DNA of 64,000 bases from Eutreptiella sp. 'Long Island Sound 2002' (lineage: Eukaryota > Euglenozoa > Euglenophyceae > Eutreptiales > Eutreptiaceae), in contig OZ038382.1 of the NCBI GenBank assembly GCA_964036045.1, forward strand, positions 130,448,556-130,512,555, in the 5' to 3' direction. A program made the translations under genes and the position numbers. The notes beneath the pieces were generated by a model. The model searched no databases. It was not told the DNA's origin and saw nothing but the letters and a program-made list of their open reading frames with translations. Of this stretch, positions 18,513 to 46,439 are shown in pieces (within the stretch, counting starts at the first letter, position 1; each line of letters begins with the position of its first letter).

Positions 18513-18532
18513 GCCACTATGGGCGTCCTAAG

Positions 18533-26018: not shown

Positions 26019-26023
26019 GTGAT
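26019..26023. repeat. Target-site duplication GTGAT, left
   Basis: GTGAT lies directly before the left tip CTTAGG and is repeated directly after the right tip at 45795-45799. Removing the element and one copy restores the LINE ORF1 frame at this point, which makes the duplication convincing despite its short length. Confidence 0.85.
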
Positions 26024-26055
26024 CTTAGGAGGCCAATAGTGCCCCCTATCGTTTT
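26024..26055 (+). repeat. Left terminal inverted repeat of element B
   Basis: This matches the reverse complement of 45763-45794 at 30 of 32 positions (differences at positions 12 and 20). The same tip recurs at 57006-57037 (copy A) and, with two changes in its first 20 bases, at 18532-18513 (copy C). Confidence 0.9.
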
Positions 26056-26482
26056 TTCAAAAAAAAATTCATGTCCTGCATAGAGCCTAGCCTCTCTGCT
26101 GCATAGCCAAGCGTAACGGAGGGGTGGTTCCCAGCCTGGGTGTATGGGGAGGAGGGACGACACGCAATTTAGGGGTGCGAAGTAGCCAAAAGGCACCATT
26201 TTGGGCCCCCACAGCATGCAAGCGCAGCCACTGTTTTTTCCAATTTTGGAGGTCTGAAATACCGAAAATGGACCAGTCGCACCATAAAAATATGTTTCAC
26301 AGTCTAATATCACAAATGGAGCACGTATTTGGCAACGGCACGTGCTGCGGTTCTTCTAGCACCCGTGGTAATGCAACGGCAATCATGACCTTACATGCAC
26401 CGCCTGTGAAGAAGGTGTCCCCTATCACAACAGAGAACAGCACCTGTACAAACAGAGGGTGCAAGGCCGCATTTCTGAAAGG

Positions 26483-26632
26483 CTGGGCTCTGCAGAGCCC
26501 AGATACATGAAATTCACTAAAAACAGGGGTAATAGTACAGGGTGGTACACCAACACAACACTGTACAGGCAAACAGGTAGTGACAGGGCGTTAAATAGGG
26601 AATTCCTACTGGCTGGGCTCTGCAGAGCCCAG
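26483..26632. repeat. Palindrome pair, 130-bp spacing
   Basis: Two perfect copies of CTGGGCTCTGCAGAGCCCAG start at 26483 and 26613. The corresponding region of copy C has degenerate versions at about 15776 and 15908. The rest of 26056-27970 is non-coding apart from another pair at 27664 and 27733 (69-bp spacing) and a poly-C tract at 26729-26752. Confidence 0.9.
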
Positions 26633-27663
26633 CTCAATACAAACATCACAAAGCACCCATGAATTACGCTATTGATAAACAAGCCAGACCACCAGTGTAG
26701 TAATGGCTACAATAGGCATCGGACTATACCCCCCCCCGCCCCCCCCCCCCCCCCGCGAAAAAAATCCCAGTCCAATAAGCGATAGACCACTAGAGCACCA
26801 GTCATACACAAGGCATGGAAGCTGTACACACTAGTTGACGAGTCTAAGGCAAGAACACACACAAAACAAGGCACAGAAGTTGTAAAAACTGTTATGTGCG
26901 CTGTAGGAGGTCCGCCAGAACAACAAAATTGGATGCGGTATTGACTACACACTGATGTGTCCCCAGATGTGGTTCACAAGCACCTACTAACACCTGGCCA
27001 CACAAAGACTGTTCCCCCTTTAAATTCCGAGCAAATGTTGAACTATCGCTAAATGGTTGACACCAACAAAAACCTGCCACAAATCGCATCAAAAAATTAA
27101 GCATCGCACAGTAGGCAGTGTCAGGCCATTGTCCAACATACGCACTGTCAACCGCTGGAGAAATGAAAAGACACAGGCCCAACAGATCAATGCAATTGAG
27201 CATACATGACAGCAAGGAATAAAACGTGGCTCAGCGATAAAAAGCAAACCTGTGCCCAAACTACTGACTTGAAATTGGACTCAGGGCATACCCGGTAAAC
27301 TCAAAATGACAGATACGTTCAGCTGAGCTCTGCAGGGCCCAGGCACGGGCAACAAAACATGTCAGGACCAAATCAGGGTTACAAAAGGCATCTGGACTTT
27401 GCAGGGCATGGACTAGTAAAAAAATAGCAAGAATTAAATGATCTGGGGCTCATACACACAAACCTGGCACCGTATATGGACCGCAATTGTGAGAAAACTC
27501 GACAGTTGGCACACTGTGTCAACGAGGGACGTACCAAAAGAAATGCCATAGCACAATGTTGTGCTGATACAACCCAATTCACACAGGGACACAGGGACAC
27601 TGTTGAGATGAAAGCAGCACTGTGTACCACCAGGAGGCATGCAAATTGGCCTGAAACAGCATG

Positions 27664-27752
27664 CTGGGCTCTGCAGAGCCCAACAGGACAAAATTGTTCA
27701 TATTCGAGGGCAAATCAAGCAAATCTGGCAAGCTGGGCTCTGCAGATCCCAG
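27664..27752. repeat. Palindrome pair, 69-bp spacing
   Basis: Copies at 27664-27683 and 27733-27752, each with one mismatch, lie about 230 bp beyond the stop codon of the coiled-coil gene. The matching pair in copy C is at 16910 and 16979. Confidence 0.9.
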
Positions 27753-27977
27753 CTCAGTGCAAATTAAAAAATTGAGCGTCAAATTCAACCACAAACACGT
27801 ACAGCGTCAAACAGGCACATCATTCACAATCCCACAACCATTTGGGACGGCACAGGACAGGCCCAGTCACATCAGGCGCTCACAAAACTAGCACAGTAAC
27901 ACGGACGCGTCTGTGGTTGTATGTCCGGTATGGTCCAGCGACAGTCACGATCCAGCGGTATGTGGGGCCTCTAGTCA

Positions 27978-29340
27978 CTAGCCGTTGCTCTTGCCGTTGC
28001 TCTTGGACAAGCCAACCCAGACACCACGTTGCAGGGTGGCCTGCAGGCCCTCAACTGCCCTTTTTTTCTGCGATGGGGACGACCCAGCGGCTGCCGTTGC
28101 CAACTTATCCTCCTCTTCTTTCCTCTTGCGATTTGCTCGTTCGTCCTCTTTTGCCTTTTTCTCCTTCTCCTTCTCCTCCTTTTTACGTTGCTTCTCCCGT
28201 GCCTCCTCTTGCTTCCGCAACTCGCGCTCCGCCTTCCCATGCTCTTTCTGCCGCTGCTTTTCGGTGTTTCTCCCCTTTGGCTTGGGAGTTTGCGGATCCG
28301 GCACCTCCTTGACTTCTGACTCACTCGTGTCCGCGTCTGCTGCCTGGTCAGGGGACTCCTGCCGGAACAGCGGCTGCCCGGGCTTGCCCAGTGCGTGACA
28401 CTCCGCCACTCAACATCCTCCTCCGTGTCCCCTTTCCGGACGCTCGTCTTCAGCAGGTTAACCACATCAGCTGCATTATAGGGACCATCAGATAGTACAC
28501 CCCATGCGCAATTCAACGGGACAGGCAAGTGAATACATCCCACACTATTCAGGTCGGGGCGGCGGCCATAGTACAGTGCCCACAGGCAGCGCGATACATC
28601 ACCATCCATGAGCGTGTCGTCCGAGTCGTCGTTGGGGTCCTCCAGCAAATTCACCAACCACCACAAAATAGCCAGACCCAGCCACACACCTTCAGTGAAC
28701 GACTTTTGTGTGAGGAAGTGCGGCACTGCAGGGCCCAGCCCATGGGTCTTCACAAGCAACAAGGTTGACTGCTCAAACAAATATGGCTCTTCTCGACGCC
28801 CCAGGTGGTACACAGCCATGCGCAAAGCCGTTGGGTAGAAATCTTCCAATTGCGACCGCAAGTGTTGTTCCACAGCGACGAAATCCCCATGGTGTCCATG
28901 AAAGGCGCCAAGTACCCCTTGAGACAGCACATGCACGATCTGCGCACCACGAATCCACCCTCCACGCCGCGGGACTTTAACAATGACGAGATTGTACGTC
29001 AGCATTTTGATCTCATTTGGGACTGCGGTCACCGATCCATCGTACGCCCAAATTTCTCCAGATTCTGACCCCTTGCCAACATTGACCTTTGCCACCTCGC
29101 CACCAGACACCTCAACAGCTGGGTTCAACACTGGTCTCACAAGCAGTGTGCGATGGGCTTCGACATCTTCTCGATCGTTGACCCACAGACCTGCCTTCAA
29201 CAGCGCTTGGAGCGGTGGCCACGGCGTGCTCTCGCTGTACTCCCAGCTCCCTTGCCATGCACCAAAATTCGCAGACGGTGACGAAACTTCTTTGAGATGC
29301 GAGCCACTTCAGTCTTTGTGCCTGTGTGTACAGGAGCCAT
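27978..29340 (-). pseudogene. Coiled-coil protein gene of element B (frameshifted)
   Basis: The best start is the ATG at 29340 (MAPVHTG). The frame is lost by a one-base deletion near 29275, where copy C keeps an extra base, and resumes in the frame that is open from 29275 to about 28410. A second shift near 28400 leads into the C-terminal Lys/Glu-rich region (28400-27978), which is a strongly charged predicted coiled coil. The middle part is rich in Trp and Leu and has an Asp-rich loop (DPNDDSDD). In total about 450 residues. I do not recognise a family. Two independently decaying copies that still align well at protein level argue for a real gene. It is the terminal gene at the left end of the element. 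Confidence 0.65.
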
Positions 29341-29399
29341 AGAGGAGGGCAGGAGGGCAGCGATCCACCAAGTCACAGCGATCCGGCAAAGCGTAAATT

Positions 29400-30450
29400 T
29401 GCATTTTGTTGGATCCTGGGCTCTGCAGAGCCCAGTACTGTCCAATTGGTAACATGAAGGCTGAAATTGGTCACTGTGGTTCATTTGGGCAGAGCCCAGC
29501 ATGACTAAATTGGCAACTTAAGGGGTGGCCCGGGGGGGGGGGGGGTTCGTGGGACATCAATAGGCCAGGCCGCAGTGGTAAACACGTCCAGCGTCAAGGA
29601 AGCTTCAACAGGTCCAGCGTCTCTGTACATGCAGTCAATTGGCATCCCAGGGGATCCTGGGCTCTGCAGAGCCCAAAACTCTCCAGGTGGTAATATGGCG
29701 TCTGAAATTGGTCAACTCCCTCCATCTAGGCTCTGCAGAGCCTAGTATGACGAAAATGGTGAATTAGGGGGTGTCCCGGGGGGGGGGGGGGGGCTTGGAC
29801 ATCATTAGGCAAGAGTGCACCGGTAATCGGGAGTGAAGTTGCGGAAGTTCGGACAATCCAACAGATCCAGCGTCTCTGTACATGCAGTCAATTGGCATCC
29901 CAGGGGATCCTGGGCTTTGCAGAGCCCAGAACTCTCCAGATGGTAATATGGCGTCTGAAATTGGTCAACTCCCTCAATCTGGGCTCTGCAGAGCCCAGCA
30001 TGACAAAATGGTGAATTAGGGGGTGTCCCGGGGGGGGGGGGGGGAAGGCTTGGGCATCATTAGGCAACAGTGCACCGGTCATCAGGACTGAAGTTGCGGA
30101 AGTTCGGACAATCCAACAGATCAAGCGTCTCTGTACACGCAGTCAATTGGCATCCCAGGTGATCCTGGGCTCTGCAGAGCCCAGAACTCTCCAGATGGTA
30201 ATATGGCGTCTGAAATTGGTCCACTCCCTCCATCTGGGCTCTGCAGAGCCTAGCATGACCAAAATGGTGAATTAGGGGTTCTCCCGGGGGGGGGGGGGGG
30301 CTTGGACATCATTAGGCAAGAGTGCACCGGTGGTCATGAGTGAAGTTGCGGAAGTTCGAACAATCCAACAGATCCAGCGTCTCTTTGCAAGCTTGCATGC
30401 AGTCAATTGGCAACCCAGGGGATCCTGGGCTCTGCAGAGCCCAGCAGACC
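29400..30450. repeat. Tandem ~250-bp units with palindrome pair and poly-G tract
   Basis: Four to five units begin near 29416, 29657, 29910, 30165 and 30425. Each has a palindrome, 49 bp of spacer, a second palindrome 69 bp from the first, then a poly-G tract of 12-14 bases and a CATTAGGCAA-type segment. Perfect or near-perfect pairs are 29657/29726, 29910/29979 and 30165/30234. Copy A keeps about two decayed units at 46021-46440. Confidence 0.9.
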
Positions 30451-31660
30451 CAAACTGTCACACTGAAATCGGTCATTACACTTCATCCAGGCTCCCTGTC
30501 GCAACGACCCAATCAAAGCAGAAGGCAAGGGCTTACAAAGCAACAGCATACGTCTTGAAGGGTGGATGCGCTCAGCCGGCATGTCGGGATGACCAAAGTG
30601 ATACCACCACAATTCCCCAGCGCGGAGCTCCTTTGCCAGCTTCTGGAAGCCCGGTACTGTACTCTTCGGCGAGGCCATGTAGTTGCATACGCGCCACAAA
30701 TTGTCGGGTTGCATTCCAGCAAAGCATCGCATTGTGTAAGGGGCAATCACCTGCTTGCGTTCCACCATCTTGCCGAGTGCATCCGCGAAGGTGGCACCAC
30801 AGGTCAGGGCCATATGGGCAGCTGGCCTCATTTGCTTGACGATTGTCTCTGTGTTGCCGGATTTTGCAGTCAGCCCCGCCTCCACGATTGCCTCACACAT
30901 CAAGGTGACAACTGTCTTCTTGCATTGTGCGTCCTCAGCCGCCAGTTGTAGGAAATTGTTCAACAGTTGGGGTACACTACTCTCACGCCCACTGTGCTGC
31001 GCCCTATTGTGTTGTCCGGCCAACTTTCACCTGATCTCGACGGATGTATCAAACTTGATGATGCGCACGTCAAAGTTAGTCATCCAGTCCTCGACCTCGC
31101 CCATCCTTGCTGTCACATCCTTGCAAATTTCATCACACGCCGCAACGCCGTGTTGGCCTCCAATCACCCACAGGGCTCCCACTGAATACAACAGCATGGC
31201 AGGTCACACAGGGCAGGCCACGTAGCCAATTACGTTGATCGAGTTGCGTCGCAACAATCCCATACCTTTGTCGTCCCAGACCACAAGCTACAGTCGGCCA
31301 TCGTGGGGGGTTTGCCAGTAGGTCCTCCTTCACCTGCGCCACGTGGTCCCAATCAATGAGCCTGGATTGGCCATACTCCATGCACCTGTCAATCTTCAGT
31401 TCCTTGCGCGGCACCTTCGCTCTCCGCACCTCCACGTAGTTTTGAATGGCCAGTACGGTTGAGGAGTCCTTAATACTGCCCATCTTCCTTGCGACACGAC
31501 CCTTGTTCACCACTTGCGAGGGAGATTGACTGGCCTGGCTGGCCCCAGCAACAGTGCTGCCCTGTACAGCATCCTCTATGGAGGGCTCTGACTGCAGTGC
31601 GTCCACTTTCTCGGCTTCCAGTGTGTCAATCGCTGGTGTCTCAGCGGTGTTGCCAGCCAT
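30403..31660 (-). pseudogene. Possible ParB/DGQHR-like protein gene (element B)
   Basis: The ATG at 31660 (MAGNTAE) opens a Ser/Gln-rich N-terminus followed by a region shared with copy A. In the frame needed to link the parts, a strand-loop motif reads GALWVIGGQHGVAAC near 31170, followed by a predicted helix. This resembles the VIDGQHR-type core of ParB-like nuclease domains, although the first Asp of DGQH is Gly here and in copy A is Ser. The C-terminal half (31023 down to about 30460) is a helical region in one open frame. There are frameshifts near 31260-31330 and stops near 31215 and 31025. The last codons read into a palindrome at 30425. The ParB assignment is tentative. Confidence 0.5.
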
Positions 31661-31879
31661 GGCAACTTCGTTTGGTATGTCACAAATGGTCCGAAAACAC
31701 ACGGACTTTACAGGACAAATCAAGTCACCAAAAACAGCACAATAATCACACAGTTCAAAGCATCAATGGTGGCAAATGGCAGATTTGGACAGCAAATTAG
31801 TCGGATCAAAGCATTCAAATTGGCACCCACATGGGTTGAAATAGCCAAAAGTTCCTCCAAAACAGCAAATCACTGCACA

Positions 31880-31997
31880 GGCATCTCAAGTACAATGTCC
31901 AGGGCACATTGATGGTCACAACATCAAACAGGCCCACTAAAACGTCCCTCGTTGACACATGTATGAACCAGCTAGAAATTGGGCCTGTGCAAATGGA
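31880..31997 (+). pseudogene. Remnant of a reverse transcriptase gene
   Basis: A 118-bp stretch translates on the plus strand to the same peptide as the start of the reverse transcriptase region in copy A (minus strand, 49770-49640), including the string TSNRPTK.SLVDTC. In B the similarity ends abruptly at about 31997. So B appears to have lost the reverse transcriptase that A keeps, leaving the first part divergently placed next to the ParB-like gene. Confidence 0.65.
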
Positions 31998-32247
31998 CTG
32001 CAGCACCACAGCCAAACCTGCTTGTGGCAATTTAACTCCAATTATCGTAACAGTGAGTACAGCAGTGCCAGGCACACCTCTTCGAGGGTCACACAGGCTG
32101 ACGCAGCGGGTGCACACTGCAATACGAAAGAATGGAGATGTGTGCACATATCAAAGCACGAAGATGGCATGGTCCAGGACTGGCCCAGCCCTAAGAAAGG
32201 AACAGCAAATGACCAGATGGGAGTACATATCGGGCAGTGGTGACAAG

Positions 32248-32594
32248 CTGGGCTCTGCAGAGCCCAGAGTAACAACAACCAGCAATACGACCCCTTAAAA
32301 CTCAGTGTCAGGCAAAGCCGGGCTCTGCAGAGCCCAGAGACTTGGGGTACAGTGATAGCAGTGGTGTAAACATCAAATTTGCCTGTTTGGGGGGGGGGGG
32401 GTTGCATTGCCACCCCCCTCGATGATCAGTCTGAGTCTATAAAAGCAACAAGAAAGCGACTGAAAATGACCAGATACGGGTACATATCAAAGAGTGGGGA
32501 CCGGCTGGGCTCTGCAGAGCCTAGAGTGTCAAAAACGAGTATTACAACCCCTGAAAACTCAGTGGCGGAGAAAGCTGGGCTCTGCAGAGCCCAG
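32248..32594. repeat. Two palindrome pairs, 70-bp spacing
   Basis: Palindromes start at 32248, 32318, 32505 and 32575. Each pair is 70 bp apart and is followed by a poly-G tract (32390-32402 and 32646-32656). The second pair lies about 90 bp beyond the stop of the gene at 32684. Confidence 0.92.
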
Positions 32595-32683
32595 ACTCTG
32601 GGGTACAGCAATAAGGGGCCTGTACACAGCAGATTGGCCTGTCTTGGGGGGGGGGGTCTGCATTGCCAGCCCCCCCCCCGTGA

Positions 32684-33621
32684 TTAGTCCGAATCTATCA
32701 GGTCAAATTCACGCAACTCCTCACTGAGCACAACAGGTACGGGGCCATCAGACAGGGCATCAACATCTACAGCATCCCTCGCCCGGATCACAGGTACGCC
32801 ATCCTCAGGGGGGGCACGCACATGATCAATGAACATTGCATTTGGCACTGGGGGAACAATGGGCTCCATTGCAATTGGTATGAACCCAACTGTTTCTACA
32901 GGTGCCCGGGCCTCGCGGCGGTTCACAGGTGGCCTAAGTGGGATATGTTGAGGTATGTAAGCCATGGCATCATCGCGGAGCCCTTGTCCACCTACTAGGG
33001 TGCACAGAAAGCGCTTTAGAATAGAGTTCATGAACACAGCTGTTAGGGTACCCCCGGTTCCCTTTTCGGGGAACACGTACGTTGTGTCTCTTCCTGCCTC
33101 AACCACACTAACTGGACCCGAGGACCATCGCACAATTGGATGCTCCTCCCGTCTTGCACCACGCATGAGTGCCCATACCCTGTCGCGCACCTCAACACAC
33201 ACACTTTCGGAGGGACTCCGTTGCACGTGCCTCCTGATGGGGGGGCATGGTGCGGAATAGGTCACCAGCCTCATCAGCCGTGTGCTTGTCGGGGTGTTGC
33301 TTGCACCGTGCCCGCAATTTTGCAAGCAGGGCCTCACAACATTCCTCCACGTGGGCAGCACCAGGCGTGTCGTCGTGCCATTGTGTATTGTACAGAAGTG
33401 CACAGCATATGGTATGGACATAGTCCATTTTTGCTGCAGCTGGACCGGCTAGGTCAACAAGCAGATCCACGCAGCGCTGAAGTACACACGTGGCCACTAT
33501 ACCAGTCCCGTCGGCGCGCCCAACCCAAGTGCAATTGCGCACTAAGTGTCCTACTGCGCAGATGGCTGGGAGGTAATAATTACGGAGGGATTCCAGGCCC
33601 CGAAGGATGCGCAACACATGG
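32684..33621 (-). pseudogene. C-terminal half of the putative element nuclease gene
   Basis: This minus-strand coding stretch starts in frame with a possible splice acceptor (TCCCAG near 33622) and runs to a stop at 32684, with a one-base shift near 33195-33250. It contains a Cys/His/Trp-rich helical part (WVGRADG..), a stretch like ALLYNTQWHDDTPGA, then a conserved C-terminal region. The end reads VDVDALSDG, a motif also found at the end of the 833-aa protein. In copy A the homologous sequence (51356-52275) follows the homologue of 42124-43362 directly, with the frame continuing. I therefore read it as the downstream part of that gene. Confidence 0.6.
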
Positions 33622-33744
33622 TGCTGGGACGCACAGCATAGAAGGTAAAAAATGGTAGGAAAATGCTGAGCATATTGCTCAGGATATTTGGGGATGCTCA
33701 GCATTCATGCTCAGCAAATGGGACTCATATTGCAGGGTTGATCT

Positions 33745-33905
33745 CGGGAGTCCCAGCCAAAATTTCTTCCGAGCTCCCCCGGCACGGTCGGCTGGGGAGC
33801 CCATGGAACATTCCTACCGATATCGGTTGCGTTTTGGGACCCGATTTGGCTGCCAAAACTTCCGAGCATCTTTCCGAGGGATTTAAAAAACTTCCAAGCG
33901 TTTTT
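33745..33905 (+). repeat. ~160-bp dispersed repeat, copy 1
   Basis: A sequence starting AAAATTTCTTCCGAGCTCCC and ending AACTTCCAAGCG recurs at about 41735-41860 and 41885-42045 in the same orientation. Copies therefore lie just inside both borders of the 8.5-kb segment. Nearby, 33664-33720 is a set of GCTCAGC/GCTGAGC inverted repeats. Confidence 0.85.
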
Positions 33906-34043
33906 CCATCAGTTTTTTGTACAATGAACTACACCGTTCTTGGTTCCCAAATCCCACACCTCAGCAAAGAAACACACAAAAAGACAAGCATGACCGTTCA
34001 CTTACGCTTGAAATGTGAATGCTCAGTGCCCTGCCTGTTCATT

Positions 34044-36545
34044 TCAGCTTGAACTGTGAATGCTGTAATCTCCTTCGCTGAGCATCTGCACAGGACAGCC
34101 ATCGCTTGACATGGCATCCACATCCACCACCACACGGCGATACTTCTTGGGTTGAGGTTGGGGTTCAGGGTTGTCACTGGATGATGAGGAAGAATCTGAG
34201 GCACTTACTGTGGAGGCACCAGATAGGTGCACAGCATCATCATCCGAATCATTATCCTCGGGACTGCTACTGCTCCCACTATCACTGCTGCTGCTGCTGC
34301 TGCAACTGCTGCTGCTGCTGCTGCTGTTGCTACTGTTACTGCTGCTACTGCCACTGCCACGAGGGCACACAAGTTGCTGCTCAATGTCGCTATCAACAAT
34401 GGGTACACGCGCCAACTTCGTACGCCTCATGGGTTGAACACGCTGCTGCTCGTTCAAACCTGTAGGACCTTGAAATGAAGCAGCACTGTCCTCGCCCTCC
34501 GAAGGGGGTACAATATCAACTGTCGCAGGGTTAGAAACTCGGCTTTGAGGGATGGGCCCCACACGTCCCTTACCCTTTCCCTTGTCCTTCAGCGCCTTAC
34601 GGCGTGCAGCACAGGACTTAAATGTGGCACGGCTCTTCAAACCCAGTTTGGGCCACTTGCAGACACCTTCCCTGTCCAGTGGTACCCATTGACGGACACC
34701 ACGCTTTGAGCCACAGGTCCCACACAGACATACCACATCAGTCTCGGGATTTGCACCTGGAAAGGCGCATTTCACCGAACGGGTGTCTGGGTGCATATAT
34801 AGGGAGCAACCACCTCCCTCCTGGAAATCCAGCAAATGCTCTAAGAGGCGTTGGAAGACCACATGCCACACGGCATTGGCAGCAACCATGCACGCCTCAA
34901 GAACAACGTTTCGTTGCACGGGCGCCCAAATTTTGGCACAGGGGATCTTCTTTTTTTTCTGCACGAACTTCTGATACAGCTCATGCTTCAAACTTTCACT
35001 AATACTGGCATCTTGCCTGGTACTAGTGACGGGGGCATATCTCTTGGCCACCCTCAGATCCCGCTCGCCGGCCTCATCGGAATACAGCATGGGTGTCCGT
35101 GGATTAAACCATGTGTGGGACCACCCATGCATATATAAGGTTGCAGTGCAACCTTCTTCAGCAAACTCGGGGATGATGTGCACAATATATGTGTACAACA
35201 TCCCCATAGCTTGCCATGTGACAGTTGCCAGGTTATTACAACCATAGCATAGATGCACCATGTGGCAAAATGCCACCACCAAGGAATGGAAAGGCAGGGG
35301 GAGCACCATACCCCCTGCTAGTCTGCCCATGACTGTGCGGGCCTCGCGACCTGTGAGGCTAATGCCTGCCTGAAATCTACCTCGTACGTGACGCATGTGC
35401 TGCCTGCTATCAGGTGGCAAAGATCCAGGATCATACCTCCTTGCCACATGTGCTATGACCTGGAGTAGCTCATGGTTGTAGGGCGCTGGTAGTGTTCGAC
35501 CTATGACACCCAGGATCCTGGAGGCTGCTCCTTTGGTGTTGTGCAATACAGGTTGCACAATATATACCTCTTCCAGGTTAGAAACCCCCTGAAACTTATG
35601 GGACCCACGCACACCATTGAGACATCCCCCTTTGTGCAAAAAGAGTTCTCCCGCCCCATCCTTATTCACCCAGGGACACGCCACACAGCCCTTTTGCCGG
35701 CACTCAGAACACAAATGGTGGTGATCGGCAGTGATTGCCCCGAGCCTTATCTGCAGGGTGGTGTTGTACACTGCACCAGCATACTTCATACGTTGCTTAA
35801 ATTTACAAGAAGGCAGGGCTTGTAAGGCCTCTGCACGTTTGGGTAGCCACTGGCAATCACTGACCTTGGGAAGCTCTTGCCAGGTCAACATGTCTGTGCA
35901 CCTAGGCACATTGCCAGACATTGGGAACCAGTGTCCCTGGAAATCAATTATACTGATTTTTGTGTTAATATTTGGACGGCCCCGGGGCTGGTAACCGTCG
36001 GCGTAGAGGCCTAAGGTCAGGGTGGCATGGGGTGGTGGGGGTTTGTGCCGGCCTTGGGCAGCCAATGAGCCACACTTCTGTAGAAGTAGGTGGCACAGCT
36101 GTGGTAACAACTTCCTGTTGTCCAGGGAGTAGTCCACTGCAGGAAGATGCAGGTCCTCCTGTTGCCTTAAAGCAACCATTGACCAACCAAGCCCTGGTTG
36201 GAGATGGTCTAAGGTGCGCAAGACAGCGGCTGGCACCACATGCTCATGGCGAAGGCGAAGTGCAGCGGCCTGGCACTCTGGTGCTTGGGTGACTGATGTG
36301 GCCTGTGTGGTAGGCAAAGGGCCAAGGGACCTACGCACAACTGTGAAGGTGCCACTTGGGGGGCGCTGTAGCTGGTCTAGGTCCTTGGCCTGCAAGGGGG
36401 TGGCCGTGGGGAAGTTCATGGCAAAGGCTGACACCATGAATTGATCAGCTGGAATAGGGCATATGCTGGCAAATGCCTCCAGCTTGGAGATCTCCCCCTT
36501 CACCCATATAGCATGGTTGTTCACAACAAATTCATGGTGAAACAT
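34044..36545 (-). CDS. Intact 833-aa protein, zinc motif and Ser-rich acidic tail; possible transposase
   Basis: An uninterrupted 833-codon frame starts at ATG 36545. Residues 1-270 are of mixed composition, with LYADGYQP near 180. A C-x2-C-x4-C-x2-C zinc motif lies at 279-290. Residues 340-580 are helical (TGREARTVMGRL near 398; HGWSHTWFNP near 473). A second Cys cluster (CLCGTC) is at 606-611. After a Lys-rich linker come an acidic poly-Ser tract (731-792) and a basic patch before VDVDAMSSDG at 808-816. The layout (an ADG motif, then a long helical region after TGxE) is loosely like CACTA/Plavaka-type transposases, but I cannot place catalytic residues with confidence. It is the longest clean gene in the window. 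The 149-bp array begins about 25 bp upstream of its start. Confidence 0.75.
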   Translation of the reverse strand: MFHHEFVVNNHAIWVKGEISKLEAFASICPIPADQFMVSAFAMNFPTATPLQAKDLDQLQRPPSGTFTVVRRSLGPLPTTQATSVTQAPECQAAALRLRHEHVVPAAVLRTLDHLQPGLGWSMVALRQQEDLHLPAVDYSLDNRKLLPQLCHLLLQKCGSLAAQGRHKPPPPHATLTLGLYADGYQPRGRPNINTKISIIDFQGHWFPMSGNVPRCTDMLTWQELPKVSDCQWLPKRAEALQALPSCKFKQRMKYAGAVYNTTLQIRLGAITADHHHLCSECRQKGCVACPWVNKDGAGELFLHKGGCLNGVRGSHKFQGVSNLEEVYIVQPVLHNTKGAASRILGVIGRTLPAPYNHELLQVIAHVARRYDPGSLPPDSRQHMRHVRGRFQAGISLTGREARTVMGRLAGGMVLPLPFHSLVVAFCHMVHLCYGCNNLATVTWQAMGMLYTYIVHIIPEFAEEGCTATLYMHGWSHTWFNPRTPMLYSDEAGERDLRVAKRYAPVTSTRQDASISESLKHELYQKFVQKKKKIPCAKIWAPVQRNVVLEACMVAANAVWHVVFQRLLEHLLDFQEGGGCSLYMHPDTRSVKCAFPGANPETDVVCLCGTCGSKRGVRQWVPLDREGVCKWPKLGLKSRATFKSCAARRKALKDKGKGKGRVGPIPQSRVSNPATVDIVPPSEGEDSAASFQGPTGLNEQQRVQPMRRTKLARVPIVDSDIEQQLVCPRGSGSSSSNSSNSSSSSSSCSSSSSSDSGSSSSPEDNDSDDDAVHLSGASTVSASDSSSSSSDNPEPQPQPKKYRRVVVDVDAMSSDGCPVQMLSEGDYSIHSSS

Positions 36546-36570
36546 GGTGCCTGGAAAACAGAAGATTGCA

Positions 36571-38951
36571 GTGGGCCACTGTTTTGGTTGGTTTCAAAGG
36601 AACCATGTATGGAAAGCCCCAACCAATACCTGTCACCAGAACCTTTTTTTGCCAGGATTGCTCCAACCAGTTTCGAGATCCAAGGGTCCAAAGTGTGCTC
36701 GACTATCCGCCCCCTCCCTCTGCGCCACTGTTTTGGTTGGTTTCAAGGAAACCATGTATGGAAAGCCCCAACCAATACCTGTCACCAGAACCTTTTTTTG
36801 CCAGGATTGCTCCAACCAGTTTCGAGATCCAAGGGTCCAAAGTGTGCTCGACTATCCGCCCCCTCCCTCTGCGCCACTGTTTTGGTTGGTTGCAAGGAAA
36901 CCATGTATGGAAAGCCCCAACCAGTACCTTTCACCAGAACCTTTTTTTGCCAGGATTGCTCCAACCAGTTTCGAGATCTAAGGGTCCAAAGTGTGCTCGA
37001 CTATCCGCCCCCTCACTCTGCGCCACTGTTTTGGTAGGTTTCAAGGAAACCATGTATGGAAAGCCCCAACCAATACCTTTCACCAGAACCTTTTTTTGCC
37101 AGGATTGCTCCAACCAGTTTCGAGATCCAAGGGTCCAAAGTGTGCTCGACTATCCGCCCCCTCACTCGGCGCCACTGTTTTGGTTGGTTTCAAGGAAACC
37201 ATGTATGGAAAGCCCCAACCAGTACCTTTCACCAGAACCTTTTTTTGCCAGGATTGCTCCAACCAGTTTCGAGATCCAAGGGTCCAAAGTGTGCTCAACT
37301 ATCCGCCCCCTCCCTCTGCGCCACTGTTTTGGTAGGTTTCAAGGAAACCATGTATGGAAAGCCCCAACCAATACCTTTCACCAGAACCTTTTTTTGCCAG
37401 GATTGCTCCAACCAGTTTCGAGATCCAAGGGTCCAAAGTGTGCTCGACTATCCGCCCCCTCCCTCTGCGCCACTGTTTTGGTTGGTTTCAAAGGAACCAT
37501 GTATGGAAAGCCCCAACCAGTACCTTTCACCAGAACCTTTTTTTGCCAGGATTGCTCCAACCAGTTTCGAGATCCAAGGGTCCAAAGTGTGCTCGACTAT
37601 CCGCCCCCTCACTCTGCGCCACTGTTTTGGTTGGTTTCAAGGAAACCATGTATGGAAAGCCCCAACCAGTTCCTGTCACCAGAACCTTTTTTTGCCAGGA
37701 TTGCTCCAACCAGCTTCGAGATCCAAGGGTCCAAAGTGTGCTCGACTATCCGCCCCCTCCCTCTGCGCCACTGTTTTGGTTGGTTGCAAGGAAACCATGT
37801 ATGGAAAGCCCCAACCAGTACCTTTCACCAGAACCTTTTTTTGCCAGGATTGCTCCAACCAGTTTCGAGATCCAAGGGTCCAAAGTGTGCTCGACTATCC
37901 GCCCCCTCCCTCTGCGCCACTGTTTTGGTTGGTTGCAAGGAAACCATGTATGGAAAGCCCCAACCAGTACCTTTCACCAGAACCTTTTTTTGCCAGGATT
38001 GCTCCAACCAGTTTCGAGATCTAAGGGTCCAAAGTGTGCTCGACTATCCGCCCCCTCACTCGGCGCCACTGTTTTGGTTGGTTTCAAGGAAACCATGTAT
38101 GGAAAGCCCCAACCAGTACCTTTCACCAGAACCTTTTTTTGCCAGGATTGCTCCAACCAGTTTCGAGATCCAAGGGTCCAAAGTGTGCTCAACTATCCGC
38201 CCCCTCCCTCTGCGCCACTGTTTTGGTAGGTTTCAAGGAAACCATGTATGGAAAGCCCCAACCAATACCTTTCACCAGAACCTTTTTTTGCCAGGATTGC
38301 TCCAACCAGTTTCGAGATCCAAGGGTCCAAAGTGTGCTCGACTATCCGCCCCCTCCCTCTGCGCCACTGTTTTGGTTGGTTTCAAAGGAACCATGTATGG
38401 AAAGCCCCAACCAGTACCTTTCACCAGAACCTTTTTTTGCCAGGATTGCTCCAACCAGTTTCGAGATCCAAGGGTCCAAAGTGTGCTCGACTATCCGCCC
38501 CCTCACTCTGCGCCACTGTTTTGGTTGGTTTCAAGGAAACCATGTATGGAAAGCCCCAACCAGTTCCTGTCACCAGAACCTTTTTTTGCCAGGATTGCTC
38601 CAACCAGCTTCGAGATCCAAGGGTCCAAAGTGTGCTCGACTATCCGCCCCCTCCCTCTGCGCCACTGTTTTGGTTGGTTGCAAGGAAACCATGTATGGAA
38701 AGCCCCAACCAGTACCTTTCACCAGAACCTTTTTTTGCCAGGATTGCTCCAACCAGTTTCGAGATCCAAGGGTCCAAAGTGTGCTCGACTATCCGCCCCC
38801 TCCCTCTGCGCCACTGTTTTGGTTGGTTTCAAGGAAACCATGTATGGAAAGCCCCAACCAGTACCTTTCACCAGAACCTTCATTTGCCAGGATTGCTTCA
38901 ACCAGCTTCGAGATCCAAGGGTCCAAAGTGTGCTCGACTATCCGCCCCCTG
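36571..38951. repeat. 149-bp tandem repeat, 16 units, with 894-bp higher-order unit
   Basis: Sixteen units of 149 bp begin at ACTGTTTTGG (36578, 36727, 36876 and so on to 38813). Units carry a short inverted repeat, GGTTTCAAGGAAACC. Variant bases recur every six units (894 bp): the CACTCGGCGCC variant at 37165 reappears at 38059. Because 149 is not a multiple of 3 and the unit lacks stops in the plus frames, very long spurious frames (for example 36566-39043) cross the array. The array lies between the 833-aa and 298-aa genes. Confidence 0.97.
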
Positions 38952-39318
38952 CCACAGGCACAACAAGCACAAGCTGGGCTGGAAGCGTGAATGGATGCCA
39001 ACAGGCAGTTCAGGTGCAGCTGCAGTTCATTTCAGTGCCTTGAATGGGAATATATACCTCCCTCTCAGTCCTCCCCCTCAGACTCAGGCTCAGGCTAAGG
39101 CTGTGCCTTGTGAGAGGCCTCGGCCTTGGCCTTAGGGGGCACAATGAGGAGAATCAACTCCCCTGGCCCGGAATCACCCCCATGGATGAGGGGGAAGGAC
39201 CTCATCCAATTGCGAGGTCGGTGGGCAGACCCCTTCACATAGTCAATGACAGTCCTGACCTGTGTGACTATGCGAAGGGGCAGTGACCCCTGGTCCCCTG
39301 GTCCCCCTCCACTCCAGC

Positions 39319-40215
39319 CTACATATGGGCTGCGGCTGATCTTCTTCCTCCTCTTACCTGAAGGGCCCCAGAGTCAGGGGCCGCCCGCCCTCTCTTCACG
39401 CCTGTGGAGGAAACAGGCACCTTGGAATCTGAGTCAGATGACTTAGGGGCCACCTGCCCTCTCCTCACCCCTGTCGAGGAAATAGGCACGTCTGAGTCAG
39501 ATGACTCAGAGTCTGAAACCACCACCTCCTCCTTCCCCTTCCCCTTCCCCCTCCCCTTACCCTTACCCTCCTCCTTCCCCTTCCCCTTACCCACTACAAT
39601 CTCTGGGGCAGAGTCTGAAGAGTCTGAATCACCCCCCCCCTTCCCCTTACCCTTGAGGACCAGTTTCCTCAACTGGTCCGGAACCCCCAACTCCCCACAC
39701 AATGCCACACTCCGGTCAGAAATGGCCAGGTCCACAACCACCTTGGCCACGTTTGGGGGCGTCTGCTCAATTGGAGCACGATGCTCCACTTGCCTGCGGG
39801 AGGTCACGGCCCCCCGAGTCACCCACACCACCACCCCCTCCCCCTCTGGCCCGTAGCGTGCCCCGGCCGCGAACCAGGTCACTGTCTTCTTACTCAGCTG
39901 TGCAAGCACCATCTGGACTTGCACAGCTGCAACAGCCGCCAACAAAGCTGCGCAGTGGGCAGCCCGCATGCCCTTGGGGTCCTCCGCATCTTCTGCTGCG
40001 GCGGCGGGCTCTGCTGCTGCTGCTCCTGCTGCTCCTCCGACTGCTGGCGCCTCCCACAAAGCGGGGGTGGCTGGCGAAGGGTTGCTGGCACCGGCACTGC
40101 TATCGGCGCTGGGGTTCCCACTCCCAAGTTCAGCCAGTCGACCCGAGGAGATGGGGACGGCGGCGGGAGCTGGTGGCTGGGCGCGGGCAGCCAGGGCAGC
40201 AGAGATGGAAGACAT
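39319..40215 (-). CDS. Intact 298-aa low-complexity protein, Lys/Gly and acidic Ser tracts
   Basis: ATG at 40215 gives an Ala/Pro/Ser-rich N-terminus (1-85), a compact middle domain (about 85-185) containing KKTVTWF and a predicted strand-rich segment VVVWVTRGAV, then alternating KGKGKG and SDSESSDSD tracts to the end. A closely similar pair, VPISSTGV / VPVSSTGV, is repeated near residues 245 and 267. Charge patterning suggests a nucleic-acid- or chromatin-associated protein, which is inference from composition. The sequence is uninterrupted, like its neighbours in the 8.5-kb segment. No family is recognised. A VTWF motif also occurs in the 351-aa neighbour. Confidence 0.65.
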   Translation of the reverse strand: MSSISAALAARAQPPAPAAVPISSGRLAELGSGNPSADSSAGASNPSPATPALWEAPAVGGAAGAAAAEPAAAAEDAEDPKGMRAAHCAALLAAVAAVQVQMVLAQLSKKTVTWFAAGARYGPEGEGVVVWVTRGAVTSRRQVEHRAPIEQTPPNVAKVVVDLAISDRSVALCGELGVPDQLRKLVLKGKGKGGGDSDSSDSAPEIVVGKGKGKEEGKGKGRGKGKGKEEVVVSDSESSDSDVPISSTGVRRGQVAPKSSDSDSKVPVSSTGVKRGRAAPDSGALQVRGGRRSAAAHM

Positions 40216-40264
40216 CAGAGCGAAAAAGAGGGCTCATGAAGACCCAACACAGTGCATCCCCAGC

Positions 40265-41320
40265 TTAGGCAGGGGGGGGGGCTTCTGCGGTCCCAACCTG
40301 GCCCTGGCCCTCACCCTTGGCCTGCAACCATGCACCTAAGATGGTAAGTCGCTGCCGCTTTGGTGCGCCCTCGGAAGAAGGTTTGGGGGCTGGGGCCAAA
40401 AGAAACTCAATGCCCCACAAGACACCGTGCGCATGGTACGTGGGTTGCTGGTCTGTTCTGAAAACCTCACCGTCGGGGGGGGTAACCACCTTTTCCCACG
40501 TGCCTGAGGGGGCTTGGTCCCACACCCGCCAGCCGTCCTTTTCTCCGAAAACCTCTACCACATGTGCACCTGTGATGGTGGCTCTGAGGGCGCTGTGAAT
40601 CGTTGCATGTGGGGACTCGCAGAAGGCATCGTTTATGATAACCCTCAAAACCTCGAACGGAACATGAATAAATGAGAGGGGGGGTAACTGCACGTTGCAG
40701 GAAACTACTTTTTTGGATCGCTTCTTGATCTTGGCCTCTTTGAACCAAGTAACTACATCGCTCTGGGTCCACTTTAACTCGCGAATGGTACTGTCCGGGT
40801 GTGTGGACAGTATTGATTTCAAGTACATGTAATGTACACGCAGCCTCTCTTCAGATTCCTCTGCAAAGGTCCGGTCCGTGTTGTATTTCGGATCCGGACC
40901 AACAATGCAGAGGTTTCTGTATTGTACACCGTACGAGGTCTCATGTTTGCTGGGGCTTGTCTTGCCCACAGCCTCCCGTGTCGTCAAGACAGGGATTGAA
41001 AAATGCTTATGCATAAGCATAGCCAGCAAGGTATCCTTGGGCTGGATGCGGTATGCATCAGGGACGACCCTGTCCAAAAAAACCCTTAGCATTCTGGGTT
41101 CAATGGTCTCTGACGGCTTATGCCGCAGGCACAGTGCTGCTAGGGCGTGTTGGAGGCGCGATTGTGTATCACCCGGTTCGGGAACTTCGGTATTGGCTGT
41201 GTCCGCGTCAATGAGCTCGCCCTCAAGCTCCAAATCTTGTTCCGGGAGCTGCTGAACGGGCTGGGGGGGCTGAGCGGACGAAGACGAGGCACTAGCGGCA
41301 CTGCCTTGACTACCAGACAT
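40265..41320 (-). CDS. Intact 351-aa protein of unknown function
   Basis: The frame is open from 41356, but the first ATG is at 41320 (MSGSQGS), giving 351 aa. The N-terminal 50 residues are Ser/Gln/Pro-rich and then acidic. Residues about 55-290 look globular: helices with RIQPKDTLLAMLM, a segment SDVVTWFKEAKIKKRSKK with a basic run, then strand-rich sequence to about 300. The C-terminal tail is Pro/Lys-rich with a KRQR basic patch. It lies 49 bp upstream of the 298-aa gene on the same strand, so the two may share a transcript. No family is recognised. Confidence 0.7.
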   Translation of the reverse strand: MSGSQGSAASASSSSAQPPQPVQQLPEQDLELEGELIDADTANTEVPEPGDTQSRLQHALAALCLRHKPSETIEPRMLRVFLDRVVPDAYRIQPKDTLLAMLMHKHFSIPVLTTREAVGKTSPSKHETSYGVQYRNLCIVGPDPKYNTDRTFAEESEERLRVHYMYLKSILSTHPDSTIRELKWTQSDVVTWFKEAKIKKRSKKVVSCNVQLPPLSFIHVPFEVLRVIINDAFCESPHATIHSALRATITGAHVVEVFGEKDGWRVWDQAPSGTWEKVVTPPDGEVFRTDQQPTYHAHGVLWGIEFLLAPAPKPSSEGAPKRQRLTILGAWLQAKGEGQGQVGTAEAPPPA

Positions 41321-41355
41321 GTCTGTTGCAGGTGACAAAAAGTGTTCTGAGCACA

Positions 41356-42123
41356 AAAAGGGAATACATTAGTGAGTCTACTCAAAGGGGCTTAGGTGAG
41401 AAAGCGACACACATGCAAAAAGAAAACCACAAAAGCAGGCACAAAGCATCACAAGGCACAAAGGGCAAACATTCAGAAGCTTGAGTACAGTGTTCTCGAT
41501 GCAAGTTTGTAGGCAAAGCAGCCACCAAGGATCAAACTGGCGTTGCACATGTCAAAAGCAAAAGTCCAAATTCACAAAGGAGCACAAAGGGGAAGCAATC
41601 ATAAGCTTGAGCACAGTGTTCTCCATGCAGTTTTGTATGCAAAGCAGACAAAGGGTAGACAAACATTAGCTTCAACGTGCTGTTCTCCATGGCATCTTGT
41701 AGGCACCAAGCATCCAACCAAAATTCCACTGGGTTCGGGTTGAAAAATTTCTTCCGAGCTCCCCCGGCACGGTCGGCCGGGAAGCCCATGGAACATTCCT
41801 ACCAATATTGGTTACGTTTTGGGACCCGATCTGGCTGCCAAAACTTCCGAGCATCTTTCCACCAAGCATCCAACCAAAATTCTACTGGGTTCGGGCTGAA
41901 AAATTTCTTCCGACCTCCCCCGGCACGGTCGGCTGGGAAGCCCATGGAACATTCCTACCGATATCGGTTGCGTTTTGGGGGGCCGATCTAGCTGCCAAAA
42001 CTTCCGAGCATCTTTCCAAGGGTTTTTGAAAACTTCCAAGCGACGGACCGAAGCATATCGCATGCACGTCGGTACAGATTTCCTAAAATTGCCACCGGTA
42101 ACCGGACAATATTGGTCTCTCTT
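41356..42123. other. Intergenic stretch with dispersed repeat copies 2 and 3
   Basis: 41480-41690 holds three related ~115-bp units around TTGAGYACAGTGTTCTC. 41735-41860 and 41885-42045 are the second and third copies of the 160-bp repeat, joined by a duplicated ACCAAGCATCCAACCAAAAT. No gene is supported. Confidence 0.7.
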
Positions 42124-43362
42124 TCAATGTTCTATGCTGGGCACCGGTGGTACATGTGACCCATCCTGTGTGTTTAGGGCTGCTTGGTTGGCGCGTCCCT
42201 CAAACAGGGTAATTTTCTGCCGAAGTTGTGCCCGTATGTCCGGGGCTGAGAGAAGGAGGGCAGCGATGGTTTTCTCTATTACAATGAGTTTGGGATGGTT
42301 ATATATGCGCGCACCGGCCCCAAACACGGGAGCGGTGGTGTACGAAAACAGAGGAAAGAATTTACGCCAAATGATATTGCAAACATGTTTGTAGGGGTGC
42401 CAGACGCCGTAAATCAACGAGATGCCCTGCAACCCATCCGGAAAATTCCAGTCAATGGTTGCTCTAGAGTAGAAAAATTTGAGCACCCGGTAGTGGATGT
42501 TGCAATCAACGAGCAATGCCATAGGATTTTGACAATGCCGTTGGGTAGTGCGTAGCATATCGACGAGATGCAAGAGCTCTTGGTTCTGACCTGTACGGGA
42601 CTCATATATGCCAAATGGCTTCCAAAAGAGTTGCTGTCTTCCAGCCTCCCGGGCAACATCCAGGGGGGCACGGATAGTTCTCCGAGAAATGGGTGTATTG
42701 CACATGTCAGTGCACACCTTCAACATTTCTCTTTGCTGTTGAACAACTACCATGGCCATTGTGTCCACCCGGCCCACTAGGTCACGCAGACTCGGGTGGC
42801 CAAGAAAATGAGGAAGGGGGGTTGTGTGCAACACCGCTATGGCGGTCACATCTAGACAGACATTGGGTTTCACCGGATTGGCCCGAAACTGGGCATGCCA
42901 CCAGTTGTCCACCCACACCACAATTGCACGCCGAACAATGCCGAGCCACAGTTTCCGGAACTGTAATGCCCCCGGGTCTGCAATAGACAACCGGGACGGC
43001 TTGGTGAGACCTGCGTGCACCAGCTTGCGCCTGTCTGCCCGCATTACAGCAATGGTGCCCTCACCACTGGGGACGGCCGCTTGTGGCGAGGCCATGCGAC
43101 GCATCCCCAGCCGTACATAATAGGCCTCCTTGGAAAAATTAGTTAGCCAACGCGGCCATTGTTTTCGTGCCAACACCTTGCGAATGCGGTCGAGCGTAAT
43201 GCGGGTCCGCTTGTTGACACGTAGACCCGCACAGAATTTTATGAATTCCTTTGCCACACCATGGGGCACAGCCGACAATATCATTTGGCGACCATTGCGC
43301 CATTCTTTCTTACAAAGAGACCGCATGTAGCTGACATGCAACGACATACAAACCGGTGCCAT
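42124..43362 (-). CDS. 412-aa putative DDE-type nuclease, N-terminal part
   Basis: The ATG at 43362 has a good context (ACCATGG). Landmarks: a Trp-rich motif RKQWPRWLTNFS at 67-77, WVDNWW at 150-155, R-x-PLDV at 231-236, LLVDCNIHYR at 283-292, GVWHPYKHVCN at 319-329, and PKLIVIEK at 357-364. D152, D286 and E363 (D235 is another option) are spaced as in RNase H-fold DDE enzymes, and the first two motifs also recur in the divergent copy at 6565-7092. The last dozen residues come from the 8.5-kb segment; the natural continuation is probably 32684-33621. I associate the family from memory with repeated dinoflagellate proteins. The catalytic role is inference. Confidence 0.65.
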   Translation of the reverse strand: MAPVCMSLHVSYMRSLCKKEWRNGRQMILSAVPHGVAKEFIKFCAGLRVNKRTRITLDRIRKVLARKQWPRWLTNFSKEAYYVRLGMRRMASPQAAVPSGEGTIAVMRADRRKLVHAGLTKPSRLSIADPGALQFRKLWLGIVRRAIVVWVDNWWHAQFRANPVKPNVCLDVTAIAVLHTTPLPHFLGHPSLRDLVGRVDTMAMVVVQQQREMLKVCTDMCNTPISRRTIRAPLDVAREAGRQQLFWKPFGIYESRTGQNQELLHLVDMLRTTQRHCQNPMALLVDCNIHYRVLKFFYSRATIDWNFPDGLQGISLIYGVWHPYKHVCNIIWRKFFPLFSYTTAPVFGAGARIYNHPKLIVIEKTIAALLLSAPDIRAQLRQKITLFEGRANQAALNTQDGSHVPPVPSIEH

Positions 43363-43471
43363 GGTTATAAGACAGTCTTGGTGGCACAACAGGAAAGAGT
43401 GGTGACCAGAACAGGTAACTAGAGGCGTATACTAGCACACAAAAGGGGGCAAAATGGGAAGTGGTGAAGGT

Positions 43472-43689
43472 CTGGGCTCTGCAGAGCCCAGCCAACAGAG
43501 AAACCCCAATAAGCACCCCTCAAGTACCAAGATTATGAGTGCTGGGCTCTGCAGAGCCCAGCGTCCCGTAATCAGTAATGGCGGGCCGTGTAATAGATAG
43601 AGGAAAAAGAGGGAGGGACGTGCCACAAGCAAAGAATTGAGAAGGGGTAAAAGTAGCATTTGGCGCAAGCTGGGCTCTGCATAGCCCAC
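43472..43689. repeat. Palindrome trio, 70- and 128-bp spacing
   Basis: Copies start at 43472 and 43542 (both perfect) and at 43670 (one base changed, GCATAGCCCA). They lie upstream of the 412-aa gene and downstream of the Pro-rich gene. Copy A keeps the last two at 53675 and 53803, again 128 bp apart. Confidence 0.92.
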
Positions 43690-44788
43690 GGTCCCAAGAA
43701 ATGATAGTTGGGGGTGCATACCACCCATTTGGGGAGTAGACCAACCACTTAATGCACCACAAAGTTTTCCGGTATTTGGCCGGGGGCATATCAGGTAGTA
43801 ATGACCACTGTGACCGATACGATCATCCTTCTTTACTGGGATAGTAGATGGTTGTGGGGGGGCAGATGGAGCCACATCCGGCGACCATCCTACATGCGCA
43901 TGTGGCAAAAGTGAGTACCTGGGGGTATGTCGGTTGTCCGCATAAGCGGCAGTGGGCAACAGAGAAGTGCGCGGGGGGGGATGCAGGAGGGAACTCCTTG
44001 GGGGTAGTGCATTATCAGACAGGGGCAGCGGGGCGCTAACTGACTGCCTACCAATGGAGGTGACTGAACTGTGACTCAGGGCGGGGGGGGTGCCTCGATG
44101 TGGTACAGTCACTGGTCGCAACAGGCTGTATTTTGACTGCCCACCGGTGCGGTCTGCTTCCAAGAGTAATGGAAGTACCTTACGTGCTGGCGATCGGAGG
44201 GGTGCCGATCAATCTGTGTAAGTGTGGGTTGGTCGGCATCCGGGGGAGGAAGTGGCCGAGGAGGTGGGATACAGGGATGGGGAGACAACTCAACAGCGGG
44301 ACGTGATTCCGGATTCAGTGTATCCAGGATCAATGCAGCCCGCTCCTCGCTGCGTGACAGAAAATGGGATCGGCATATCCGATCCCCTTGTTGCCATGTG
44401 ACGAGGGGGTGCGCATTGGGTTCCGCAATGCAAAACGGAACCGTGCACGAAGCCCCAAAATGTACTGCACCAACCATCGTGCCTGGTCACCACTGTTGTC
44501 CCTCAGCAACTCCATTGTCTTTGGAGTCAATGGGTCATTGAGGGAGGCCTTTGGTGGGGTTGGTTGGTCCGTGGGGACAAGCTTTGGTGGCCGCGGTGGG
44601 GATGGGGGTGCTGACCCCGTAAACGTAATCGCCTCTTGCAAGGCGAGTATAGCTGCAGCACGCGCTGTTGTTCCACTGGTTGATGGCACCGGTAAGGGTA
44701 CAGGTCCGACAGCCTCATCTCCTTCAGTATCCTGGCCGGAACCCGGTACATCCACCTCCGTACGTCTAGCATGTGGGAAATCAGCCAT
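43690..44788 (-). pseudogene. Pro/Ser-rich protein gene of element B (two frameshifts)
   Basis: ATG at 44788 (MADFPHARR) starts an acidic then Pro-rich region and a helical stretch (NSGDQARWLVQYILGLRARFRFALRNPM). The frame shifts near 44400 into a segment SHFLSRSEERAALILDTL and a Pro-rich linker. It shifts again near 44160 into a Ser/Pro-rich tail ending in a conserved block with PNTGKLC near 43765. Copy A (53830-55529) carries the same three blocks but lacks at least one of these shifts, which shows the ancestral frame order. The exact stop is unclear, because frames run into palindromes. No family is recognised. Confidence 0.55.
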
Positions 44789-45218
44789 GAATGTTGTAAA
44801 AGGAAGATAGCATGTTACATGTACTTAATATACGGGACGTATGACCAGATAGTAAATGTACCAGCATTGCACAGTATGCACAAAAACCACCTGCAATAGA
44901 TTAGGGTATATTGCAAACAATGTGTCCTAAAACTCCCATAGTATCGGACGCACCACAACAATAGAAACACTACCCCACTGGACCCCTGTTGGACTACACT
45001 GCGTGCAAACAGTCCAAGGCTTGTTGCAGCGTACTCCTAAATGGCGACTGTCATACTTACACAATGCCATGGGTGCACCATTGTAATACACGATACAACA
45101 GCAACGCGGCAAAAAGGCATAGAAAAAAATACTACCAGACCACATGTTGAATAAGTTTCGAAGTGTCATAGCGCTATTATGTCACACAAAAGGGGGCAAA
45201 ATGGGAAGTTGTGAAGAT

Positions 45219-45308
45219 CTGGGCTCTGCAGAGCCCAGCAAACAGGGAGACCCTAATAAGCACCCCTCAAGCACCAAGTTTATGAACTGTGGGCTCTGCA
45301 GAGCCCAG
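45219..45308. repeat. Palindrome pair, 70-bp spacing
   Basis: Copies start at 45219 (perfect) and 45289 (first bases changed). The same spacer family is found, inverted, at 57507 in copy A, where only one palindrome remains. A second pair, decayed, starts at 45600 and 45669; its inverted counterpart in copy A is at 57112 and 57172. The remainder of 44800-45762 is non-coding. Confidence 0.88.
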
Positions 45309-45762
45309 GTTGTTGAAAAATCCTAATATAAGCCTTGTTTAGGCAGTTCCATCTAGATTATGTGATGCCTGGTGTGGTAAGCGTCTTGGATCATTGCCCA
45401 CTGGTAATGTATGTAGGAGTTGTATCCTTGAATACTGTTACTGTTGACCTGTGTGGGGACAATGTTTAGGTTGAATGTGTTACAATGTCAACGAGAGTAT
45501 ACCACTTAACCCAGCGCCATGTAGCGTGGCCACTGGACCACTGTATACAGGTGCCGAGTGTTGTACCGGGGGGTAGGTACAGAGGGTATAACTTGTAACC
45601 TGGGCTTTGAAGAGCCCAGAGATCTAAGATGTGTAATGTTGGGGCCAGAAATGACTTACACGGCTGGTCTGGGCTCTGCAAAGGCAAGCCTGATGAAAAA
45701 ATGCAAATTTGAACCCCCATTTTACCATACGCAAAACACCACCCATCACCCCTTCTTTCACT

Positions 45763-45794
45763 AAAACGATAGGGTGCACTATGGGCCTCCTAAG
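45763..45794 (-). repeat. Right terminal inverted repeat of element B
   Basis: The reverse complement begins CTTAGGAGGCCCATAGTGC and matches the left end at 30 of 32 positions. It is followed directly by GTGAT (45795-45799), the second copy of the target duplication. Confidence 0.9.
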
Positions 45795-45987
45795 GTGATA
45801 CCACGGTATTCACCAGTTCCTCATTTAGCTCTATGAAGAACAGCTTCGAGTTCCGTGGGTCTGTTCCGGGAAGGAGATGGACTTCATCAGAGTTCAAACC
45901 AATAGACCCCAGCAGCCCGTTGATTAGGTCATTGTGGACCTGCACGGCGTACTGGTTATCCCGCACATCTGGCTCTAGGTGTCTGGC
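45795..45987 (-). pseudogene. LINE ORF1, part upstream of the element B insertion
   Basis: A minus-strand frame reads protein-like sequence (HNDLINGLLGSIG.., FFIELNEELVNTV) into the target duplication. Joined through one copy of GTGAT, it continues in the same frame into 26018 and onward. The upstream limit is near 45987, where sequence typical of copy A (a GGGTGTC and poly-G tract) begins, so the LINE is probably 5'-truncated there. Confidence 0.75.
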
Positions 45988-46439
45988 TGGGTGTCTAGGG
46001 GGGGGGGGGGGTCCCTGGGACATTATTAGGCAAAGTTGTACCGGTTGAGACTAGTGAACTTGCGGAAGTTTCAACACGCACAGCGTCTTTGTAGATCCAA
46101 TCAATTGGCATCCCAGGGGGATCCTGGGCTGTGCAGAGCCCAATACTATCAAGATGGTAATATGACGGCTAAAATTGGTCAATGTGGTTTATCTCGGCTT
46201 TGTAGACCCGGGCATGACCAAAATGGTGAATTAGGGGGTGTTTGGGGGGAGGGGGGGGCGTTCTTGGACATCATCAGGTAAGGTTGCACCAGTCATCTGC
46301 AGTGAAGTTGCGAAAGTTCCAATAGGCACAGCGTCTCTTAAGATCCAATCAATCTGCATCCCATGGGATCCAGGGTTCTCCAGAGCCTAGCAGACTCAAG
46401 CTGCTTGGTGTCACACTGAAATCGGTCATTACACTTCAT

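Follow-up and report, generated by a model that had tools for sequence, protein, structure and literature searches.

The window analysed here is a 64,000-nucleotide stretch of the Eutreptiella sp. 'Long Island Sound 2002' genome (assembly GCA_964036045.1, contig OZ038382.1, positions 130,448,556 to 130,512,555), and it contains two transposons, one inside the other. The outer element is bounded by two 32-bp terminal inverted repeats (TIRs), the left at 26024..26055 (+ strand, tip CTTAGGAGGCC) and the right at 45763..45794 (- strand), which are identical at 30/32 positions and are flanked by the target-site duplication GTGAT at 26019..26023 and 45795..45799. Our re-reading of 26019-26055 and 45763-45799 agreed with the original prediction on these ends and flanks. 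That prediction had taken everything between them for a complete 19.8-kb element. Instead, the stretch is an 11.2-kb transposon into whose gene A a later, unrelated transposon of 8,544 bp (33615..42158) has inserted. The left part of the outer element (26024..33614) comprises genes E, D1, and D2 together with the C-terminal part of gene A, and the right part (42159..45794) holds the N-terminal part of gene A and gene F; starting at the right end, the genes on the minus strand follow one another as F, A, D2, D1, E.

The outer element is a real, multicopy TIR element. Nine full-length copies on contig C1 (10,313 to 11,458 bp) carry the same left and right ends (9/9 each), vary by small indels and in how often repeats occur, and share 93.1-96.0% identity with the window element once its insert is removed. 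All nine are collinear with the left part, apart from indels and repeat number (92-95% identity), and with the right part, where some have small deletions. A lone copy or an assembly join would each have spoken against the predicted element; nine copies share both ends and the window has no N, making an assembly join unnecessary. With up to one mismatch, the tip was found 7 times in the window against 0.91 expected, and these matches include the two further tips that had been predicted, at 57006 (+, exact) and 18532 (-, one mismatch). Across the 2.28 Gb covered by our genome-wide tip counts, the tip 11-mer occurred 506 + 490 times, compared with 216 + 191 for a reversed control.

Duplications flanking the tips were sampled in 20 pairs, each with a + tip first and a - tip ~3 to 45 kb further on; these pairs are a subset of the possible ones. 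Exact 5-bp duplications were present at 17 of the 20, or at 18/21 with the window element included. The 18 duplicated 5-mers were all distinct, and mismatched (cross) pairings never shared a 5-mer (0/420), which indicates that the outer element inserts at many sites, with no evident target sequence. Several copies with the same ends and different 5-bp flanks, the evidence that the original prediction had called for, were hereby found, and its exact ends and 5-bp duplications hold for the window and for other copies. The combination of inverted ends with a duplication of fixed length at many different sites is that of a TIR DNA transposon.

The segment 33615-42158 was missing from the nine full-length copies, and five longer copies with other inserts were likewise uninterrupted at that point. 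When the gene A protein P0012 was compared with the window (tblastn), it matched mainly 43179-42160 and then 33614-32702, showing that gene A is split by the 8.5 kb; in an older copy within the window, the two gene A parts are adjacent at 52280-52292. It could be argued that the whole 19.8 kb moves as a single element of which the 8.5-kb module is an integral part, given that both parts are enclosed by the same pair of TIRs and the same GTGAT duplication. We consider this very improbable, as the module is missing at that point in 14/14 copies examined, with gene A continuous there, and also occurs elsewhere, in the gene E region of an element of a second family (described below). The module further has its own ends, CACATG(13)CAGCATAGAA, which occur 565 + 608 = 1,173 times genome-wide as exact matches, compared with 0 for the reversed control. 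An assembly artefact or a segmental duplication, rather than transposition, might come to mind in a genome rich in repeats, but 18 distinct exact 5-bp duplications at 21 sites leave it a still smaller, almost negligible probability. A spliced intron was also considered for the 8.5 kb and dropped; no frame-keeping GT/AG pair was seen at the junctions by eye, and 14/14 copies are without the piece. The outer transposon in the window is thus interrupted by a second one and, with gene A broken by the nested insertion, this copy is unable to move by its own gene A. With regard to the original claim that the gene set, 5-bp duplication, and tip fit no superfamily, the superfamily is indeed not recognisable, but the gene set had mixed two transposons.

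Gene A is the likely transposase of the outer element, judging from its conservation and context. Its N-terminal part (42159..43389, -) is cut by the nested insertion, and its C-terminal part (32684..33614, -; delimited by tblastn of P0012) lies in two frames here, with a frame change near 33.2 kb; 4/9 other copies encode it as one 734-aa open reading frame (ORF). Searches with gene A gave 51 matches at E <= 0.001, and its proteins formed one cluster with 83 members. Three relatives of ~700 aa (P0044, P0061, and P0062) were 33-34% identical, and two of the three came from other types of source. The ratio of nonsynonymous to synonymous substitution rates (dN/dS) was 0.82-1.05 across the six pairs of four young intact copies, compared with 0.47 when the L043 gene A was aligned with that of the older window copy (720 codons, 6 stop-containing ones excluded). 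These values fit decay after insertion and selection while the element was active. Conserved motifs in gene A comprise W-x-D-N, LL-x-D (with the invariant D309), IEK (with the invariant E386), and HxEExxE, and, together with the genomic context, they suggest a DDE-type transposase. In a profile comparison gene A showed no relation to gene B of the nested transposon; searches of viral contigs with the TIR, gene A, and gene B returned no match, and PDB sequence searches no significant match.

Downstream of gene A, we predicted genes D2 (31133..31762, -), D1 (30403..31026, -; 266 aa in 4/9 copies), and E (27971..29308, -), the last with a K/R/E-rich C-terminal tail. Each has a relative in a second family, represented by the 6.9-kb element L047, with E-values in a search of this one 7-kb locus of 1.8e-5 for D2, 6.9e-21 for D1, and 2e-10 for E, the last partly due to low-complexity sequence because the charged tail adds to the score. 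L047 has the tips CTTAGGAGGCCTTAGTTGCCC and CTTAGGAGGCCTTAATTGCCC and the duplication GATAA/GATAC, and it encodes a gene A at about 30% identity, followed by the D2, D1, and E relatives (order A-D2-D1-E); its D1 relative carries in-frame stops. Two more pairs with the L047 tip type were flanked by the exact duplications ATTAT and GTGTT. The tip was our search key, and its sharing by the two families is therefore not independent evidence; the association of this tip with gene A and its companions is independent. Larger elements also contain gene A relatives at 28-38% identity to P0012; these were observed inside X2, X3, and X4, and nested copies of such other families were observed in L077-L080, L081-L083, and L071-L072.

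The gene F region (43432..44824, -) holds two ORFs here and a 356-aa ORF in 2/9 copies, and L047 has no convincing relative of it. The outer element also carries, between 26483 and 45688 and outside 33615-42158, 24 copies of the 20-bp palindrome CTGGGCTCTGCAGAGCCCAG (<=4 substitutions), with 23-26 per copy in ten copies. These palindromes are mostly intergenic and near the ends, many are paired 69-70 bp apart, and none appeared in three shuffles of the window (<=3 substitutions). L047 has another palindrome, GCGAAATTTCGC, five times. Our guess is that the palindromes are protein binding sites.

We regard it as probable, on the sequence evidence, that the outer unit is an 11.2-kb TIR transposon of an undescribed superfamily, with gene A as the candidate DDE transposase and the 8.5 kb as a later insertion. 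The novelty is argued from the lack of a significant Pfam match and of a description among the papers that our searches listed. Several observations weigh against this reading. The sampled tips were exact CTTAGGAGGCC matches taken from a portion of a single contig (C1), and the exact 5-bp duplication was absent at 3/21 pairs, two of which differ at one of the five bases, while the third (L063/L064) is flanked by GAAGAG, repeated exactly over 6 bp. The E-values for D2, D1, and E were obtained with composition correction off. Pfam scans of ten gene A proteins or fragments gave nothing significant, with one hit at chance level (PF24820, E 0.1, 13 bits against a cut-off of 28.1), and D1, D2, E, F, and their relatives likewise had no significant match in Pfam. 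The structure model of gene A is poor (mean pLDDT 42), fold searches with it yielded no usable match, and codon-position bias in 300-base windows across ten copies was not significant. With no significant Pfam match and a poor model, the case for catalysis by gene A is one of conservation and context.

DDE transposases often escape sequence profiles, and gene A may belong, as a strongly diverged transposase, to a known superfamily, in which case the element would be an unusual member moving in the same way. The order of its motifs (D-N, D, G-V-W-H-x-Y-K, E-rich helix) is reminiscent of the DUF6589 and KDZ groups. Set against this, the ten gene A proteins and fragments drew a blank in Pfam, and the tip and gene set are not known from any of the 20 DDE superfamilies; we see membership in a known superfamily as possible but on the unlikely side. 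It is considerably less likely that the transposase activity lies in D1/D2 or E, which are also retained in the second family; gene A exceeds the other frames in length and in conservation between the two families, carries invariant D and E residues, and has ~700-aa relatives in other sources, although protein searches did not extend to D or E. An undescribed superfamily with gene A as transposase remains the reading that we prefer.

The nested transposon has its ends at 33615..33643 (+) and 42130..42158 (-). Its gene B (34044..36545, -; 833 aa) has relatives whose weak structure model resembles Transib/RAG1, and a second ORF (40265..41356, -) has relatives situated ahead of gene B in the gene models P0006 and P0008; between the two genes lies a 149-bp tandem array of 15.9 units (36575..38950). 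A second copy, carrying extra sequence, interrupts the gene E region of the second-family element F2_27.2 (L074-L076) at 5244-19966, where the empty site is visible in uninterrupted relatives. One base (A, + strand as fetched) was duplicated at 2/2 insertions with an empty counterpart. The sequence profiles gave no match for the nested-transposon protein, and the modelled similarity makes a RAG1/Transib relative possible.

Older relatives of the outer element surround it in the window. One is a rearranged copy at 45989..57609, to which the tip at 57006 and the adjacent gene A parts belong, and another, at 15163..18532, is a relative of the left part with its gene E segment inverted, to which the tip at 18532 belongs. 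In these older copies, gene D, gene E, and right-end segments (49648-50926, 15368-18518, and 57006-57609) are inverted relative to the nine collinear young copies. The copy at 45989..57609 also includes ~3 kb (~46664-49632) flanked by the near-repeat CATACACGCCA beside an A/T-rich end, which looks like a retroelement insertion. A decayed gene A relative (24-27% identical) is present at 6436-7092 (-), and long tandem arrays with units of 20, 52, and 22 bp occupy 1-4183. An Rfam scan of the window found no family.

As for the target, the original prediction held that removal of the element with one GTGAT would rebuild ORF1 of a long interspersed nuclear element (LINE). The minus-strand LINE frame does stay in phase across the junction, and RVT_1 and zf-RVT lie downstream. 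The rejoined frame has a stop 11 codons beyond the junction and runs to just before the next ORF with two in-frame stops, and no other LINE copy that could serve as an empty site was among the fetched loci. Because phase alone has a one-in-three chance, and with no empty-site copy among those loci, the interruption of a LINE frame is weakly supported.

A possible mechanism is that gene A, as a DDE-type transposase, would bind the CTTAGGAGGCC ends and join them to the target at positions staggered by 5 bases; filling in these gaps would give the target duplication. Cutting at the ends and joining with this stagger are suggested by the 5-bp duplications together with established knowledge of DDE transposition. 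D1, D2, and E would act as accessory proteins and the palindromes as binding sites, and the inner 8.5-kb transposon, whose protein may be Transib/RAG1-like, would have entered gene A later. More tentatively, and with odds that we put below even, the new superfamily may be defined by a conserved four-gene cassette (A with D2, D1, and E) and move by means of several proteins, with family-specific palindrome arrays between the genes that would serve for binding or assembly and differ between families in step with the proteins. If the superfamily is new, it would add a transposase lineage with hundreds of tips, several conserved genes, and an apparently multi-component machine. The question is testable, since gene A relatives of ~700 aa exist in other sources (P0044, P0061, and P0062). 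The nested element contributes a possible relative of RAG1/Transib whose insertion footprint, at 1 base, is odd.

Our literature search, which did not extend to Repbase or Dfam, listed no paper that seems to describe the outer element, and CTTAGGAGGCC turned up in five papers on other subjects. Among known systems, Transib has 5-bp target duplications and ends that begin with CACWRTG. The outer element shares the duplication length with Transib/RAG1, but its tip begins with CTTAGG rather than CAC, as seen at both window ends and at 40 fetched tips, the latter chosen by that tip. Gene A had no fold match to RAG1/Transib among the matches listed, from a model too poor to prove much. The nested element differs from Transib, RAG1, and CMC in duplicating 1 base at 2/2 sites (two sites only), compared with the 5 bp of Transib, and in that the putative second catalytic position of gene B is Q, as read from an alignment. 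Zisupton/KDZ elements are, like the outer element, eukaryotic TIR transposons, some of them long, but they make 8-bp target duplications, and Pfam, KDZ included, gave no match. The protein-primed DNA polymerase B and retroviral-type integrase of Polinton/Maverick had no Pfam match in the main ORFs scanned. A Repbase-based count gives 20 superfamilies with a DDD/E transposase, according to PMC9587614. In that paper, KolobokP is described with 4-bp TTAA duplications, and its proteins are different from those found here, but, like the outer element, it is a TIR transposon with a further conserved protein beside its transposase.

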